A stretch of 64,000 bases of DNA from positions 21,396 through 85,395 of the IMG/VR virus record IMGVR_UViG_3300031963_000064, one strand, 5' to 3'. This document shows, one piece after another, positions 19,068-28,748 of this stretch. The notes below the pieces were generated by a model that made no database searches, was not told where the DNA came from, and saw only the letters and a program-made list of their open reading frames with translations. A program made the translations under genes and the position numbers. The DNA is from a virus. How positions within the stretch are numbered: the first letter of the stretch is position 1; every line of letters starts with the position of its first letter.

Positions 19068-19715
19068 TTATTTATTGGTATTTCTTGTAAAGGTTCTTCC
19101 TCTCCTCCAACCTTGAGGTATTTCATTTTCCTTAAAAACATATCTACTTTCATTGCCATCAGTAATCCACATCATAACACTTTTCCCACTATTCCAAGAT
19201 TTTTTACCATACCTATGATTTTTTTCACCAATTTGTCTCTCACTCAATTTTCTTTTAGTTTCTTCACTCCTTTTTGATCCATAGGATGGATGATCTTTAC
19301 CAAACTTACCATACATATGATTTTTTTCACCTTTTTGGCGGTCACTAAACATTTGTAAAACATCTTTACTATGTCTATATCCGTAGGCAGGATGTTTCTC
19401 TCCTATTTTACCATACATTGGGTTATTTTTTCCATTCAAACAATAGTAGAATTTAGTTGAAGTCTGTTTTGCTCTATTCGCAAAATGAGGATTTTTATCT
19501 ACTTCATAAAAATTGTGAAGAATTATTTCTGCTTCAAGTGCTTCTTCTACACTATCAAAAGTTTCTAAAATAATCTTTTGAGATGGATTAAAGTTCTTAT
19601 CGTGAAAACTTCCAAAGTAATTTACATCTTTTTCTGGAAGACAATCACATTCTCTTTTTCCAATATAACCCCTCCCATATTCCTCATAGGAATAATACAC
19701 ATAAAAATGTTTCAT
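19068..19715 (-). CDS. GIY-YIG-like homing endonuclease with NUMOD3 repeats
   Basis: 215 aa. The N-terminus has YVYYSYEEYGRGYIGKRECD, a GIY-YIG-type arrangement (YY, spacer, YIG, then Arg), and a likely catalytic Glu in VEEALEAEIILHNFY. Residues ~95-170 hold three to four NUMOD3-type DNA-binding units (NNPMYGKIGEKHPAYGYRHS, HMYGKFGKDHPSYGSKRSEE, NHRYGKKSWNSGK). The C-terminus has the DGNESRYVFKENEIPQGW motif shared with the second endonuclease at 21229. It is free-standing between thyX and the MPTY gene; thyX itself is intact. Expression is controlled by a hairpin with an internal late promoter (see 19723-19806). Confidence 0.8.
   Translation of the reverse strand: MKHFYVYYSYEEYGRGYIGKRECDCLPEKDVNYFGSFHDKNFNPSQKIILETFDSVEEALEAEIILHNFYEVDKNPHFANRAKQTSTKFYYCLNGKNNPMYGKIGEKHPAYGYRHSKDVLQMFSDRQKGEKNHMYGKFGKDHPSYGSKRSEETKRKLSERQIGEKNHRYGKKSWNSGKSVMMWITDGNESRYVFKENEIPQGWRRGRTFTRNTNK
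19069..19076 (-). promoter_or_regulatory. Late promoter element AATAAATA
   Basis: AATAAATA on the minus strand at the very 3' end of the endonuclease gene, 33 nt before the ATG at 19035. Confidence 0.45.
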
Positions 19716-20731: not shown

Positions 20732-20897
20732 CTAAATCAGAGTCCTCAAAAATTTCGTCGTAATCTAAAATTGGTCGTTTTCTTACTTCTGGTTCTGTGT
20801 ACTTATATGCAGATGTATCAGAATAAATTTCTGCCTTAAGAGAATCAACCAAGAGTTCAAGATTACGAACAATCAGTTTTAGTTTGTCTTTGTCCAT
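20724..20897 (-). CDS. Small acidic hypothetical protein (57 aa)
   Basis: Starts MDKDKLKLIVRNLELLVDSL at 20897 and ends with KRPILDYDEIFEDSDLDD. A short amphipathic helix is followed by a YxYTEPEVRKRP linker and an acidic tail. Conserved small proteins of this shape occur in cyanophages. A possible promoter lies at 20919-20947. It opens the thyX operon. Confidence 0.7.
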   Translation of the reverse strand: MDKDKLKLIVRNLELLVDSLKAEIYSDTSAYKYTEPEVRKRPILDYDEIFEDSDLDD

Positions 20898-20918
20898 AAG
20901 ATATCATTCTCTCTCAAG

Positions 20919-20947
20919 ATTTTAGCATAAAAAAAGGAGGGGATCAA
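20919..20947 (-). promoter_or_regulatory. Possible sigma70 promoter of the thyX operon
   Basis: Minus strand: TTGATC (20942-20947), 17-nt spacer, TAAAAT (20919-20924). The hexamers are imperfect and the spacer includes the terminator U-run, so this is tentative; the 17-nt spacing matches the strong promoters elsewhere. Confidence 0.4.
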
Positions 20948-20954
20948 CCCTCCT
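20928..20954 (-). terminator. Rho-independent terminator
   Basis: AAGGAGGG-TTGATC-CCCTCCTT followed by a run of T on the minus strand. It closes the DUF4278 / 30-aa gene unit. Confidence 0.8.
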
Positions 20955-20959
20955 TAATG

Positions 20960-21052
20960 TCATCGCATTGCCATTGCAAGTTGTGCTTTGTATTTACGAT
21001 CTTCTTTTTTCTTTTGATCTTTAATAAGTTGAAGTACATTAATTTTCTTCAT
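20960..21052 (-). CDS. Tiny basic protein (30 aa)
   Basis: Starts MKKINVLQLIKDQKKKEDRK and ends YKAQLAMAMR. A basic amphipathic helix. A purine-rich ribosome site (AAGGAGGGG) lies 9 nt upstream, inside the end of the DUF4278 gene, and the genes overlap by one base. Strong ribosome site plus tight packing support translation. It is immediately followed by a terminator. Function unknown. Confidence 0.6.
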   Translation of the reverse strand: MKKINVLQLIKDQKKKEDRKYKAQLAMAMR

Positions 21053-21189
21053 CACTTATGCCCCTCCTTTACAAACTTAACACCACGATAGGTTTCGTTG
21101 TATTGTTGGGGTTGCTGCATCATCTGTTGTTGATACTCAAGACGCTTTTGAGTATCATATTCAATGCCGCGATATACGACTTTAGACAT
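21052..21189 (-). CDS. DUF4278-like small protein downstream of a glutamine-riboswitch-like leader (45 aa)
   Basis: Starts MSKVVYRGIEYDTQKRLEYQ and ends YNETYRGVKFVKEGHK. The twin YRG(I/V) motifs at each end are the mark of DUF4278, a cyanobacterial/cyanophage family of short proteins. A good ribosome site (AAGGAG) precedes the ATG. The leader at 21222-21272 resembles the glutamine aptamer of the Downstream-peptide class, which by name controls short peptides like this. The protein is probably part of a nitrogen-status response; its target is unknown to me. Confidence 0.75.
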   Translation of the reverse strand: MSKVVYRGIEYDTQKRLEYQQQMMQQPQQYNETYRGVKFVKEGHK

Positions 21190-21221
21190 TAGGTTTCTCC
21201 TTAGTTTTTTAGGTTAAAGAG

Positions 21222-21272
21222 CGTTCCTTCAGTCGGCGTTTGCGTTCGGTATTTGCGAATACCGAATGAACG
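21222..21272 (-). promoter_or_regulatory. Glutamine-riboswitch-like element B (3' half conserved)
   Basis: Minus strand: CGTTCA, then a 9-bp hairpin (TTCGGTATT/AATACCGAA), CGCAAACGCCGAC, then TGAAGGAACG. CGTTC pairs with GAACG (P1). The 3' half (GCCGAC-TGAAGGAACGC) fits the glnA/Downstream-peptide consensus I remember, while the expected CGGAAGUAAG core is replaced by CGCAAACG. Most of the element lies inside the 3' coding end of the upstream endonuclease, whose stop codon is the TGA of TGAAGG. Confidence 0.6.
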
Positions 21273-21819
21273 ACCTACTCTTTTTCCACCTACGAATAGA
21301 AGTATGACTAGTCCCATACATTTCACCAAGTTCTCTAATAGGTATATCTAAGATAGAAGGATTTTTATCTACGTCTTCCAAGAAAACTTTATATCCACCA
21401 CCCCTTCTTCTATCATTTAGATATTTTTCAGGAGTGTTGATATAAGTAGATAAATCTCTCAGTCTACCTTTAACCCAACCATTAGGTATTTGGTTTTTAT
21501 GGACTAGTTTTTCTTCTATTCCATTATTCACACGAACCATACCATAGGAGCATAGACCAACTTTTGTTGACTTCACCTTATTAGCGAAGTGTTGATTCTC
21601 ATCAACAGAGAAGAACTCATGGAGTTTTATTTCTGCTAAGTGTGCATCTTCTCTAGTCTCGTGGATGGATAGGATAATTTTTTCAGTTGGACTGAAAGTT
21701 TCATCCGTATAACTCCCCATATAAAAATCCATAGAAGGTTCTACAGAAGAACCCCTAGAACCAATATATCCACGACCATAAGGTTCGTATGAGTAGTAGG
21801 TATAGAAAAACATAGGCAT
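21229..21819 (-). CDS. GIY-YIG-like homing endonuclease with C-terminal helix-turn-helix
   Basis: 196 aa, paralog of the one at 19068. The N-terminus FYTYYSYEPYGRGYIGSRG and EDAHLAEIKLHEFFSVDENQ-HFANKVKST share the same nuclease core, and VNNGIEEKLVHKNQIPNGWV matches the C-terminal motif of the paralog. NUMOD3 units are missing; instead the end has a helix-turn-helix (RELGEMYGTSHTSIRRWKKS). Start at 21819 or, six bases on, 21813 (both ATG). Its first bases overlap riboswitch element A and its last 44 bases overlap element B, so the gene lies inside a split riboswitch. It is the likely mobile agent here. Confidence 0.8.
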   Translation of the reverse strand: MPMFFYTYYSYEPYGRGYIGSRGSSVEPSMDFYMGSYTDETFSPTEKIILSIHETREDAHLAEIKLHEFFSVDENQHFANKVKSTKVGLCSYGMVRVNNGIEEKLVHKNQIPNGWVKGRLRDLSTYINTPEKYLNDRRRGGGYKVFLEDVDKNPSILDIPIRELGEMYGTSHTSIRRWKKSRSFIRYSQIPNANAD

Positions 21820-21821
21820 CC

Positions 21822-21862
21822 CGTTCCGCGTCGGCTTACTTCCGTCTGTTTCCAGATGAACG
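21822..21862 (-). promoter_or_regulatory. Glutamine-riboswitch-like element A (5' half conserved)
   Basis: Minus strand: CGTTCA, P2 hairpin TCTG-GAAA-CAGA, then the conserved CGGAAGTAAG, GCCGAC, and CGCGGAACG. CGTTC pairs with GAACG. The 5' half is an excellent match to the glutamine aptamer (glnA / Downstream-peptide type), while GAAGGAACG at the 3' side is degenerate. The promoter at 21870-21898 starts transcription right at its first base. The GGAACGGG 3' strand of P1 is also the only ribosome-site-like sequence before the endonuclease ATG. Confidence 0.7.
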
Positions 21863-21869
21863 TAAGGTC

Positions 21870-21898
21870 ATTATAGACCTTTTCAGATTATATAGCAA
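21870..21898 (-). promoter_or_regulatory. Sigma70-type promoter of the riboswitch-endonuclease-DUF4278 unit
   Basis: Minus strand: TTGCTA (21893-21898), 17-nt spacer, TATAAT (21870-21875). The expected start, about 7 nt on, coincides with the first base of riboswitch element A. The -10 lies in a small AAGGTC/GACCTT inverted repeat. Confidence 0.7.
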
Positions 21899-21943
21899 TA
21901 TTACTGTGTATAAAATGTTACACTTTTACAAATCTTAAGGGGG

Positions 21944-21972
21944 CAAAAAAATTGCCGGGATTTTTTCCCAGC
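21944..21972 (-). terminator. Rho-independent terminator
   Basis: GCTGGGA, short A-rich loop, TCCCGGC, followed by ATTTTTTT on the minus strand, a few bases after the stop of the 117-aa gene. It isolates the riboswitch-controlled unit from the upstream operon. Confidence 0.8.
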
Positions 21973-21982
21973 ATTTTGTAAA

Positions 21983-22336
21983 TCACTTTCGCTTTTTCTT
22001 TTCGGGGGATTTGTAACCCCAGAGTTTTGGATTGACTCGTCCGTATCCAAAGTCAATACTCTTCAGATTGCCACGAAACTTATCCCAGTACATATCAAAC
22101 AATTTAATTCTACTTCCTCTTGTAAGATCAAAACAGATCTTTTCATCTACAAAATACTTTATGATATAAGCATCATTTGGAGCTTCTTTAGTACAAACGT
22201 CAGTATATGAACCATTTTCAATCAGAATATCACAACCATAACGTGACTTACAAGTTTCTTTTTCTGCTGATGTCCAATGGTCCATATTATTTTCCGTATT
22301 TTGCTTTACTCCAATTACATCATGAACTTGACTCAC
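21983..22336 (-). CDS. Conserved hypothetical cyanophage protein (117 aa)
   Basis: MSQVHDVIGVKQNTENNMDH; a likely domain with YGCDILIENGSYTDVCTKEA and YIIKYFVDEKICFDLTRGSR; then KLFDMYWDKFRGNLKSIDFG and a final YGRVNPKLWGYKSPEKKKRK basic tail. I recall related proteins in cyanophages but no function. It overlaps the start of the upstream gene's stop by 4 nt (ATGA) and precedes a strong terminator, so it is the last gene of its operon. Confidence 0.7.
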   Translation of the reverse strand: MSQVHDVIGVKQNTENNMDHWTSAEKETCKSRYGCDILIENGSYTDVCTKEAPNDAYIIKYFVDEKICFDLTRGSRIKLFDMYWDKFRGNLKSIDFGYGRVNPKLWGYKSPEKKKRK

Positions 22337-24911: not shown

Positions 24912-27900
24912 TTATACGTTAAATGATGCAGGGTATGTCGGTTGTGGCAATGCGTTTGCTCTTGCGCTTGATGCTGCAAGAGACCTACGAGCAACACTTA
25001 ATGCTGCACCAGGAACTGCTGCTGTTGTATCTGATGAATAAGTGACCTTATCCATTGTTGAGAATGTACCAGGACCACCACCACCAAAATAACCAGCAGT
25101 TGAGTTTCCTGATGCTGCCAGACGATAACGTGTTCCACTTAATGCGGCACCAGGAACTGCTGCTGTGGTGTCTGATGAATAAGTGACCTTATCCATTGTC
25201 GATGGTGCAGGAGAACCACCACCAAAGTATCCAGAAGATTGATTACCTGTTGCAGCAAGTTGAGAACGAGCAACACTTAATGCTGCACCAGGAACTGCTG
25301 CTGTTGTGTCTGATGAATAAGTGACCTTATCCATTAATGATGATGTAGGAAGACCACCACCAAAGTATCCAGCAGTTGAGTTTCCTGTTGCGGCAAGATA
25401 ACGACGAGCAGCACTTAATGCGGCACCAGGAACTGCTGCTGTGGTGTCAGATGCATAAGTAACCTTATCCATTGTTGAGTAATTGGGTATAGGGAATGCT
25501 GATCCCACTCCACCACCGAAGTATCCTGCAGTTGAAGATCCTGTTGCAGCAAAACTAAAACGACCAACACTTAATGCTGCACCAGGAACTGCTGCTGTTG
25601 TATCAGTGGAATAAGTAACCTTATCCATTGTTGACTGGGGACCAGGAAAACCACCACCAAAGTATCCTGCGGTTAAGGATCCTGTTGCAGCAAGTCCATA
25701 ACGTGCTGCACTTAATGCAGCACCAGTAACTGTTGCTGTTGTATCTGTTGAATAAGTAACTTTATCCATTGTTGATCTTGTACCACCAGGATTAAAACCA
25801 CCACCAAAGTATCCAGTGTTCGGAGTCGGTGCGAATGATGGGGTCTCAAAGGTTGGTTGTGGCAATGCATTTGCTCTGGCACTTGATGCAGCAAGATCAC
25901 TACGAGCAACACTTAATGATGCACTAGGAACTGCTGCTGTTGTATCATTAGAATAAGTGACCTTATCTATTCTTGAAAAAAGAGGAAGACCATAAGACGC
26001 TCCACCACCAAAATATCCTGCATTTGAGTTTCCTGTTGCAGCAACTTTACAACGATTGGTGCTCAAAAATGCACCAGGAACTGCTGCTGTAGTATCAGTC
26101 GCATAAGTGACCTTATCCATTGTTGATCGATCAACACCAGTCAATCCCGGACTGGGTGGAGTGCCACCACCAAAGTAACCTGCGGTTGAGTTTCCTGTTG
26201 CTGCCAGATGATAACGTGCTGCACTTAATGAGGCACCAGGAACTTGTGCTGTAGTATCAGTAGAATAAGTTAACTTATCCATTGTCGATCTTAGTTCTGT
26301 ACTAGTACCATAACCACCACCAAAGTATCCTGCGGTTGAGTTTCCTGTTGCAGATCCGTAAGTGCGACCTACACTCAAAAATCCAGCAGTAGGAAGTGCT
26401 GCTGTGGTATCAGATGAATAAGTTACCTTATCCATTGTTGATATTTGTGAGGGAAATCCATATCCACCACCAAAGTATCCTGCTGTTGAAGATCCTGTTG
26501 CACTTGATATTTCACGAGCACTAGATAGTTTAGCCAATGGAACTGCTGCTGTGGTGTCTGATGAATAAGTGACCTTATCCATTGTTGAATAATTTCCGAC
26601 ACCAGGAACCTGACCACCACCAAAGTATCCTGCGGTTGAGTTTCCTGTTGCTGCCAGACGATAACGAGCAGCACTTAATGCTGCTCCAGGAGCTGCTACT
26701 GTTGTATCAGTTGAATAAGTGACCTTATCCATTGTTGATCTTACACCAGGAGCAGAACCACCACCAAAGTACCCAGTGTTTGGTGCTGTTACATTAACTG
26801 TTCCTGGTGTTGCAGTGAGTGCTGGTGGTTGTGGTAGTGCATTTGCTCTTGCGCTTGATGCAGCAAGACCAAATCGGGGATAACTTAAGTTTGCACCAGG
26901 AACTGCTGCTGTGGTATCTGATGAATAAGTGACCTTATCCATTTCTAAGAATCCAGGACCACCACCAAAGTATCCTGCTGTTGAATTACCTGTTGCACCA
27001 AGATAACCACGTGCTGCACTTAATGCGGCACCAGGAACTGCTGCAGTGGTGTCTGATGAATAAGTGACCTTATCCATTGTTGAGAATGTTTGACCACCAC
27101 CAAAGTATCCTGCTGTTGAGTTTCCTGTTGCGGCAAGACCATAACGAGCAGGAACACTTAATGCGGCACCAGGAACTGCTGCAGTGGTGTCTGATGAATA
27201 AGTGACCTTATCCATTGTTGATCTTGGACCAGGATTACCACCACCAAAGTATCCTGATGTTGAGTTTCCTGTTGCGGCAAGATAGTAACGAGCAACACTT
27301 AAGGATGCTCCAGGAACTGCTGCTGTTGTGTCGGTTGAATAAGTGACCTTATCCATCAATGTAAGTCCTAAACCACCACCAAAGTATCCTGCTGTTGAGT
27401 TTCCTGTTGCGGCAAGATAAGAACGACCAACACTTAATGCGGCACCAGGAACTGCTACTGTAGTATCAGATGCATAAGTAACCTTATCCATTATGTCTGT
27501 AAAATAACCACCACCAAAATATCCTGCTGTTGAGTTACCTGTTGCTGCCAAACCATAACGTGCAGCACTTAATGATGCACCAGGAACTGCTGCTGTAGTA
27601 TCAGACGCATAAGTAACCTTATCCATTGTTGTATGAAATCCACCACCAGATCCACCACCAAAGTATCCAGTGTCTGGTGCTGGTGTTGCATCAGTAAATC
27701 TTGTTGGTGGGTCTGATGGAGCAAAGAAAAATGCACTTGATGCTGCAAGATTAACCCGAGCAACACTTAATGAGGCACCAGCAACTGTTGTTCGTGTGTC
27801 AGTAGAATATGATACCTTATCCATCGTCGATCTTACTGGTATGGGAAATCCTGGAGAACTATTTCCACCACCAAAGTATCCTGCTGTTGAATTTCCTGTT

Positions 27901-28748
27901 GCGGCAAGATTATAACGATCAGCACTTAAAAATGTGCCAGGAATTACTGCTGTGGTATCAGACGCATAAGTAACCTTATCGATTATTGATCTTGCACCAC
28001 CAGAAGATGTTCCACCACCAAAATATCCTGCGGTTGAAGATCCCGTTGCAGCAAGACTAAAACGAGCATCACTTAAAAATGCACCAGGAACTGCTGCTGC
28101 TGTATCAGATGAATAAGTCAACTTATCCATTATCGAATATATTGGTTGAGGAACTACATTTTGAGTACCACCACCAAAGTATCCAGCGGATGAAGATCCT
28201 GTTGCAGCAAGATAATAACGAGCAGCACTTAATGCGGCACCAGGAACTGTTGATCTAGTATCAGTTGAATAAGTGATCTTATCCATTGTTGTCACATATG
28301 CTGGTTCAGATCCACCACCAAAGTATCCTGCGGTTGAGTTTCCTGTTGCTCCAGATCCATAACGAGGAGAACTTAATGAAGCACCAGGAATTGTTGATCT
28401 TGTATCAGTCGAATAAGTGACCTTATCAGTTGTTGAGTGAATTGGTCCGGAGGAATTTCCACCCGCAAAATATCCAGCAGTAGAAGATCCCGTTGCTCCT
28501 AAACTATTACGAGCAACACTTAAGTTTGCACCAGGAACTGCTGCTGTTGTATCAGATGCATAAGTAACCTTATCCATCGTTGATCTTGGAGCAGGAGAAA
28601 GAAAACCACCACCAAAGTATCCTGCAAGTGGCAGTGCTAATGGAGAAGGAGATATCCAAACATCAGATAATGAAATCCATCCATTAGTAAAAGGTATTTT
28701 TTCTTCTCTAATATATGTTAATGTAAATACTCCTCTGGTGTTTGGCAT
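24912..28748 (-). CDS. Giant Kelch-like repeat fibre, paralog 1 (1278 aa)
   Basis: Begins MPNTRGVFTLTYIREEKIPF. Then come 24 repeats of about 50 residues, each reading GYFGGG, a variable loop, STMDKVTYSSDTTAAVPGAA, LSxARxxLAATGNSTA. They fall into four blocks of six, separated by linkers such as ASSARANALPQPP. A double-glycine strand every ~50 residues, in sixes, is the pattern of six-bladed Kelch-type beta-propellers; four in a row are predicted. It ends YPASFNV. The probable role is host recognition at the tail periphery (inference). Only loops after GYFGGG and around ARxxLA vary strongly. Confidence 0.8.
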   Translation of the reverse strand: MPNTRGVFTLTYIREEKIPFTNGWISLSDVWISPSPLALPLAGYFGGGFLSPAPRSTMDKVTYASDTTAAVPGANLSVARNSLGATGSSTAGYFAGGNSSGPIHSTTDKVTYSTDTRSTIPGASLSSPRYGSGATGNSTAGYFGGGSEPAYVTTMDKITYSTDTRSTVPGAALSAARYYLAATGSSSAGYFGGGTQNVVPQPIYSIMDKLTYSSDTAAAVPGAFLSDARFSLAATGSSTAGYFGGGTSSGGARSIIDKVTYASDTTAVIPGTFLSADRYNLAATGNSTAGYFGGGNSSPGFPIPVRSTMDKVSYSTDTRTTVAGASLSVARVNLAASSAFFFAPSDPPTRFTDATPAPDTGYFGGGSGGGFHTTMDKVTYASDTTAAVPGASLSAARYGLAATGNSTAGYFGGGYFTDIMDKVTYASDTTVAVPGAALSVGRSYLAATGNSTAGYFGGGLGLTLMDKVTYSTDTTAAVPGASLSVARYYLAATGNSTSGYFGGGNPGPRSTMDKVTYSSDTTAAVPGAALSVPARYGLAATGNSTAGYFGGGQTFSTMDKVTYSSDTTAAVPGAALSAARGYLGATGNSTAGYFGGGPGFLEMDKVTYSSDTTAAVPGANLSYPRFGLAASSARANALPQPPALTATPGTVNVTAPNTGYFGGGSAPGVRSTMDKVTYSTDTTVAAPGAALSAARYRLAATGNSTAGYFGGGQVPGVGNYSTMDKVTYSSDTTAAVPLAKLSSAREISSATGSSTAGYFGGGYGFPSQISTMDKVTYSSDTTAALPTAGFLSVGRTYGSATGNSTAGYFGGGYGTSTELRSTMDKLTYSTDTTAQVPGASLSAARYHLAATGNSTAGYFGGGTPPSPGLTGVDRSTMDKVTYATDTTAAVPGAFLSTNRCKVAATGNSNAGYFGGGASYGLPLFSRIDKVTYSNDTTAAVPSASLSVARSDLAASSARANALPQPTFETPSFAPTPNTGYFGGGFNPGGTRSTMDKVTYSTDTTATVTGAALSAARYGLAATGSLTAGYFGGGFPGPQSTMDKVTYSTDTTAAVPGAALSVGRFSFAATGSSTAGYFGGGVGSAFPIPNYSTMDKVTYASDTTAAVPGAALSAARRYLAATGNSTAGYFGGGLPTSSLMDKVTYSSDTTAAVPGAALSVARSQLAATGNQSSGYFGGGSPAPSTMDKVTYSSDTTAAVPGAALSGTRYRLAASGNSTAGYFGGGGPGTFSTMDKVTYSSDTTAAVPGAALSVARRSLAASSARANALPQPTYPASFNV

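Follow-up and report, generated by a model that had tools for sequence, protein, structure and literature searches.

A probable composite glutamine riboswitch with gene-bearing loops in the leader of a small DUF4278-like cyanophage gene

Introduction

Type 1 glutamine riboswitches (glnA RNA, Rfam family RF01739) are characterized by the helices P1 and P2, a CGGAAGUA core, a GAAGGAACG end and a position before a DUF4278-type gene, all of which are shared by the phage leader described here. In cyanobacteria, glutamine riboswitches mainly precede DUF4278 genes (PMC6316151). The phage RNA differs from RF01739 in its P3, which is expanded with two additional hairpins, P4 and P5, and in the presence of protein genes within the loops of P2, P4 or P5. 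Glutamine-II, the Downstream-peptide motif (RF01704), likewise contains CGUUCA and a CGCAAG core and is found before DUF4278 genes in marine picocyanobacteria, whereas the phage RNA departs from it in P3 and in the extra hairpins and reaches 15-25 bits against 33 in all loci tested.

The locus lies in a stretch of 64,000 nucleotides, referred to as the window (IMG/VR virus record IMGVR_UViG_3300031963_000064, positions 21,396 to 85,395). We consider it quite probable that it represents one composite cyanophage glutamine riboswitch of the RF01739 lineage, with gene-bearing loops, in the leader of a small DUF4278-like gene. There is good support for its fold and for the places where genes are inserted, whereas we infer that it binds glutamine, that the endonuclease is active and which way regulation runs. 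At the level of sequence, comparison among relatives establishes the anatomy, the insertion sites, the selection on coding and the selection on a codon choice that keeps stems closed.

Organization of the leader

Two elements, A and B, are located on the minus strand of the window. Scanning positions 20800-22300 with cmscan in E-value mode yielded RF01739 matches at 21864-21818 (element A, 30.1 bits, E 4.1e-4) and 21274-21218 (element B, 29.5 bits, E 6.2e-4), the two best among 4227 families. Both are below the Rfam gathering score of 35 bits and are therefore missed by a gathering-threshold Rfam scan of the whole window, which does not list them. An earlier note on this DNA had placed both elements correctly and recognized their likeness to riboswitches, RF01739 being the best match of each. 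Of the two Infernal models it proposed as a check, RF01739 matches, below its gathering score, and RF01704 gave no match in the window (cmscan, 20800-22300). Membership in RF01704 was rejected, as relatives score 24.8, 24.6 and 15.3 bits against a gathering score of 33.

A had been described as a good 5′ half and B as a good 3′ half, and they are indeed the canonical halves of one aptamer: P1, P2, the CGGAAGUA core and the GAAGGAACG 3′ end of RF01739 are all found, the 5′ part in A and the 3′ part in B. The sequence also confirms that GCCGAC occurs in both elements and that an endonuclease-like ORF of 196 codons (21819-21229, minus strand) occupies the gap between them. The features, all on the minus strand, are as follows.

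21908..21921, minus: NtcA-like box GTA-N8-TAC (GTAACATTTTATAC), a pattern in the window; its identity as an NtcA site is presumed
21870..21898, minus: candidate sigma-70-like promoter, TTGCTA-17 nt-TATAAT, from the sequence, ending just before the riboswitch
21858..21862, minus: P1 5′ strand CGUUC, from the RF01739 match; outer pairing deduced from the composite Rfam match in relatives
21845..21856, minus: P2 hairpin UCUG-GAAA-CAGA
21837..21845, minus: conserved glutamine-aptamer core ACGGAAGUA, from the RF01739 alignment
21829..21836, minus: P3 5′ strand AGCCGACG, pairing with 21238-21231 by cross-copy covariation
21822..21826, minus: P4 5′ strand GAACG, by compensatory change in the relatives L117, L248 and L271
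21229..21819, minus: homing-endonuclease-like ORF (HEG), 196 aa, its body filling the P4 loop
21268..21272, minus: P4 3′ strand CGUUC, by compensatory change; kept closed by the codon choice of the HEG
21245..21266, minus: P5 hairpin, 9 bp, identical in the gene-free relative L311; P2 and P5 arms covary in relatives
21231..21238, minus: P3 3′ strand CGCCGACU, by cross-copy covariation
21222..21230, minus: GAAG joint and P1 3′ strand GAACG, from the RF01739 alignment
21216..21221, minus: putative anti-Shine-Dalgarno CUCUUU, from fold predictions
21197..21202, minus: Shine-Dalgarno AAGGAG of the downstream gene, from the sequence
21052..21189, minus: downstream small protein, 45 aa, PHROG 5049, DUF4278-like

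In most relatives the NtcA-like box is found at about -59 from the riboswitch, and the promoter layout of the window is the same in relatives. A promoter ending at the riboswitch and an upstream NtcA-like box are also seen in host genes of this class. The -10 box is flanked by an inverted repeat, AAGGTC-TATAAT-GACCTT (window 21864-21881, minus strand), whose symmetry is kept in most relatives with differing arms (GGTCT/AGACC, TGTGTTA/TAACACA, GGTATG/CATACC), so that it resembles an operator of drifting specificity. In L026 and L141 (S-TIM66) the region upstream of CGTTCA has another sequence in place of the usual promoter, which includes an NtcA-like box, GTA-N8-TAC, some 20 nt ahead of the riboswitch. 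Elsewhere on the minus strand the window contains a group I intron match (RF00028, 58.5 bits, 525-929) beside two tRNA genes and, at 24912-28748, a protein of 1278 residues with repeats GYFGGG...STMDKVTYSSDTTAAVPGA, possibly a tail or fibre protein.

Relatives of the leader

Short-pattern scans of viral contigs and phage records provided, after removal of duplicates, at least 248 units with both copies, i.e. counterparts of A and B. Among these, 55 are fully compact, 108 carry a P5 gene, 21 a P2 gene and 56 both, and 8 have a long linker. The linker between the copies measures 3-6 nt save in a few longer units; the clear long-linker cases among the units listed are explained by an endonuclease gene, with linkers of 549 nt in the window type and of 591 nt in the Sf-CH5 type. 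As a check for a host origin, the copy-2 pattern was compared with 84,980 bacterial and archaeal genomes, which gave 20 matches. Of the eight inspected, six bear the element (two labelled Prochlorococcus, the rest apparently mis-binned) and two are due to chance, and hence the composite form looks phage-specific.

A single composite aptamer

On comparative grounds, the architecture of the leader reads P1, P2, core, P3 closing over P4 and P5, core and P1. In this arrangement P1 would be formed by the first CGUUC with the last GAACG and P2 by the hairpin of A, and P3 would pair A with B; the inner hairpin P4, GAACG-3 nt-CGUUC, would lie inside P3 together with the second hairpin, P5. Pairing was counted in 21 distinct rows of the long type and six of the short type. 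In the long type, cross-copy pairing gives 17 double-change cells and a covariation of 0.146 (at most 0.061 in slid registers), whereas local pairing gives no double-change cell and a covariation of 0.009; in the short type the corresponding cells number two and none. The base before CGG in copy 1 is T, A or G and pairs with A, T or C in copy 2, and the central segments covary as well (CAAC with GTTG, AGTCG with CGACT, AGTCA with TGACT). S-SRM01 (L005), for which the first hexamer was taken as CGTTCA, shows a C-G pair in place of the A-T pair of the others. Two non-standard pairs, C-A and A-C, are retained in the long-type P3. The P3 hairpin of RF01739 between core and GAAGG is thus present across the copies, with compensatory changes, and is expanded for P4 and P5. 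The two GCCGAC copies, at which the earlier note had placed the break, are accordingly the two strands of P3, and the break lies in the P4 loop.

P4 is supported by an exchange in L117, L248 and L271, in which GGAACG has become GCAACG together with CGTTCA becoming CGTTGA; this may be a single event. With these changes the 3′ strand of copy 1 remains complementary to the 5′ strand of copy 2, and the local P1 helix is broken in either copy; the partners remaining for P1 are the first CGUUC and, at the other end, the last GAACG. The outer P1 itself is invariant, with CGTTC/GGAACG partly fixed by the search patterns, and is therefore deduced by exclusion and from the Rfam alignment. In short-loop relatives RF01739 aligns from the P1 of copy 1 to the P1 of copy 2 with an insertion in P3, the composite scoring 43.6 bits in L025 and 42.9 bits in L087 (Infernal), above the cut-off; L001 shows the composite alignment as well. 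For S-CREM1 the same alignment of the first CGUUC to the last GAACG scored 34.4 bits in our Infernal analysis, and a glnA riboswitch match of 44.0 bits over the same span has been reported by its authors (PMC9964418).

These data bear on a tandem arrangement, in which A and B would each be a complete glutamine aptamer, locally folded and acting cooperatively, with the HEG in their linker. Each element does score alone, local P1 pairs are possible, and some glnA RNAs have been reported in tandem (PMC2864571). However, local covariation is absent, roughly half of the distinct rows have a disrupted local P3 while the cross-copy pairs are kept, the P4 exchange disrupts both local P1 helices, and the 5′ half of B is devoid of GUA as is the 3′ half of A of GAAGG. 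We regard the tandem arrangement as unlikely; it was rejected on the cross-copy covariation and the P4 exchange, and A and B, which the earlier note had treated as separately foldable, are probably not separately working aptamers. Minimum free energy folding was discarded as an arbiter, since the differences are too small (-33.8 kcal/mol composite and -33.0 kcal/mol local in the window, which hardly separates the two; mean -0.84 kcal/mol over 53 units).

An endonuclease-like gene in the P4 loop

The composite fold places the HEG in the loop of P4. Its ATG follows 2 nt after the GGAACG of element A, i.e. the P4 5′ strand, and its last 14 codons overlap the P4 3′ strand CGTTCA, the 9-bp P5 hairpin and the P3 3′ strand CGCCGAC, the stop codon being the UGA of the aptamer's CUGAAGG (conserved GACTGAAGGAACG; GACUGAAGGAACG). 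Uninterrupted leaders, which the earlier note had suggested looking for, were found between the same neighbouring genes in the viral contigs L311 and L348. The P4 loop, 549 nt long in the window, comprises 4 nt in L311 (flanks 83% identical on the left and 88% on the right) and 3 nt in L348 (flanks 78% and 83%), and the P5 hairpin of L311, TTCGGTATTCGCAAATACCGAA, equals that of the window base for base. Blast against annotated phages located element B without the gene in S-CREM1 and S-PM2, and L047 exhibits in its P4 loop a 44-nt scar made of both HEG ends.

According to the earlier note, the gene had invaded a simple riboswitch at GCCGAC and its own ends rebuilt an aptamer on each side. The ORF does run through CGTTCA and the hairpin with its last 14 codons, as had been stated; GGAACG, said to be supplied by its first bases, is located upstream of the ATG. 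Moreover, GGAACG, CGTTCA and the same hairpin are already present in the gene-free L311, L348, S-CREM1 and S-PM2, where they constitute the riboswitch's own P4 and P5 rather than halves created by the insert. The gene-free L311 and L348 thus refute the rebuilding of the aptamer by the gene, to which we attach next to no probability. The further expectation that a riboswitch fold survives the insertion holds in so far as the composite fold looks preserved. A HEG-like gene has probably entered the P4 loop, a position presumably tolerated since the stem can still close over the insert. Predicted P4 closure over the window HEG falls from 0.79 to 0.26 when its codons are shuffled synonymously, none of 30 shuffles reaching the native value, and in two HEG relatives it falls from 0.54 to 0.28 and from 0.64 to 0.26.

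Every full-length relative of the HEG that was examined, whether in a phage or in a viral contig, occupies the same P4 loop. The window protein had no match in Pfam; among PHROGs it resembles known homing endonucleases (PHROG 314, homing endonuclease, E 1.8e-5; PHROG 10820, HNH endonuclease, E 2e-8). A motif YTYYSY...GYIGSR, invariant in seven relatives, recalls in its sequence the GIY-YIG enzymes. The structure model is weak (pLDDT 54.5), and a fold search with it against the PDB gave nothing significant, the best hit being UPF0213 (1zg2, E 0.38). If active, the putative endonuclease would be expected to cleave near GGAACGGATCGTTC in the gene-free leader only. The same N-terminal family is represented once more in the window, at 19068-19715 on the minus strand, by an endonuclease-like gene that contains NUMOD3 repeats (Pfam PF07460).

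Small genes in the P2 and P5 loops

Most relatives among the units listed contain a gene of about 50-70 codons in the P2 loop, the P5 loop or both, which the earlier note did not mention. In many relatives the genes comprise 60-75 codons in P2 and 49-65 in P5, and the gene-bearing P2 or P5 regions of the units listed are 137-233 nt long. Intact ORFs with an ATG close behind CGTTCA, mostly within 3-5 nt, and open for at least 40 codons account for 209 of the 213 large loops among the units listed (120 of 120 in an earlier subset). Their start codons are found within or beside the 5′ strand of the stem around the gene. The stops occupy fixed places, namely the P2 3′ strand or the bases just before it, the UAA within GUAAG, or the UGA within CUGAAGG. 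Loop ORFs are annotated as genes in many phages, Syn9 gp196 and gp197 both being loop genes, and match PHROG 6471, 504 and 13397. The median dN/dS of 0.22 for P2 genes and 0.17 for P5 genes, with an excess of third-position changes, indicates from sequence comparison that the ORFs are coding and under purifying selection. The proteins begin with a hydrophobic stretch and share two conserved cysteines; the P5 protein was modelled as three helices (pLDDT 81.5), and a fold search with this model gave no significant match.

The arms of P2 and P5 around the genes show 90 double-change cells and a covariation of 0.409, against at most 0.165 in slid registers, and stay paired through compensatory change. 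In addition, synonymous codons were shuffled inside the loop genes with protein and codon usage kept, and the predicted closure of the enclosing stem was scored. For P2-gene stems shuffling lowered closure from 0.73 to 0.46, with a decrease in 32 of 35 cases, and for P5-gene stems from 0.72 to 0.40, with a decrease in 75 of 81; the sequences are related, so that formal probabilities would be too small, and the effect is large and in one direction. Codon choice thus appears to favour closure of the enclosing stem to a greater degree than the protein sequence alone would call for.

Such maintenance also weighs against the idea that the RNA elements are decayed, non-sensing remnants and that the genes use a convenient stretch of conserved DNA. 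The window scores below the Rfam cut-off, and the 5′ half of copy 2 and the 3′ half of copy 1 are divergent, as decay would have it. Yet compensatory changes have maintained core, P2, P3, P4 and P5 across hundreds of phages, codon choice keeps the stems closed and several relatives pass the Rfam cut-off, and we consider decay very improbable.

In short-type units CGGAG is found about 10 nt before the ATG of the P5 gene. The GAG in the P4 loop that completes it occurs in 71 of the 74 short-type units listed with a P5 gene versus one of the 10 without, which suggests that the P4 loop can act as Shine-Dalgarno sequence for the P5 gene. No clear Shine-Dalgarno sequence was seen upstream of P2 genes.

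Downstream gene and proposed mechanism

The downstream protein of the window matches Pfam DUF4278 with 19.3 bits (E 0.0015), below the gathering score of 25.3, and PHROG 5049 with E 1.6e-10. In the marine phages L025, L081 and L139 (Syn9) the regulated gene codes for another small protein, which starts with MNTL(T/N)LI(K)KQI and is not DUF4278-like.

For the composite riboswitch the following mechanism is conceivable. Bound glutamine would stabilize P1-P3 and hide the start regions of the loop genes. Ribosomes on a loop gene would, conversely, pass through the 3′ half of its stem and unfold it, those on P4 and P5 genes reaching into the core as far as the UGA and unfolding the core as well. 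Since the ligand-bound fold would hide the starts and translation would unfold the stems, glutamine binding and loop-gene translation should oppose each other. Access to the downstream Shine-Dalgarno sequence would be set by P1/J3-1. In predicted folds CUCUUU beside P1 can pair either with the downstream AAGGAG or with AAGGA of the GAAGGAACG end, and the free anti-Shine-Dalgarno of the window would predict an OFF switch, bound glutamine lowering downstream expression. The type 1 glutamine riboswitches known so far act as ON switches, opposite to this proposal (PMC6316151), and our confidence in the OFF step is therefore low. Taken further, the leader might be a gene-bearing scaffold in which three aptamer loops serve as gene cassettes with start and stop signals built in and in which ligand binding and loop translation are mutually exclusive, so that the phage would sense glutamine and accordingly make either the loop proteins or the DUF4278-type protein encoded downstream. 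We put this forward tentatively, at somewhat less than an even chance.

Comparison with known systems

No published description of genes in cyanophage riboswitch loops was found in the literature examined, which did not extend to the main glutamine riboswitch papers, and as far as this literature shows the expanded P3 domain and the genes in three loops are undescribed. Placing genes in loops of an RNA that senses a metabolite, under selection for coding as well as for folding, would constitute a new coupling of translation to ligand sensing. A gene that splits the aptamer lets it be missed by standard Rfam scans, which explains why such widespread leaders are hard to annotate, and the loop genes themselves (PHROG 504 and 6471, in hundreds of genomes) pass for small orphan genes of the ordinary kind. 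The HEG-like gene would have found, outside introns, a safe site in a conserved RNA structure. The culturable phages Syn9, S-CAM1 and S-CREM1 make the system testable.

Among cyanophage free-standing homing endonucleases, F-CphI of the psbA region of S-PM2 (PMC6083498) is comparable to the window HEG, and an ORF beginning at its locus is similar to the first 85 residues of the latter. F-CphI differs by its Endo VII domain and psbA target, whereas the window HEG has another C-terminal part and resides in a riboswitch loop. The arrangement has its nearest precedents in intron loops that carry ORFs and in a B12 aptamer that contains a uORF (PMC11260477). As in group I introns with HEG ORFs in peripheral loops, a structured RNA tolerates a homing-type gene whose ORF can overlap RNA strands, but the phage RNA, a presumed metabolite sensor, does not splice, and two more of its loops hold non-nuclease genes. 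The uORF of the metE B12 riboswitch of Mycobacterium tuberculosis (PMC11260477) is likewise a translated ORF inside an aptamer with an expected effect on folding; it is short and regulatory, whereas the phage loops encode whole conserved proteins of 50-196 residues in hundreds of phages.
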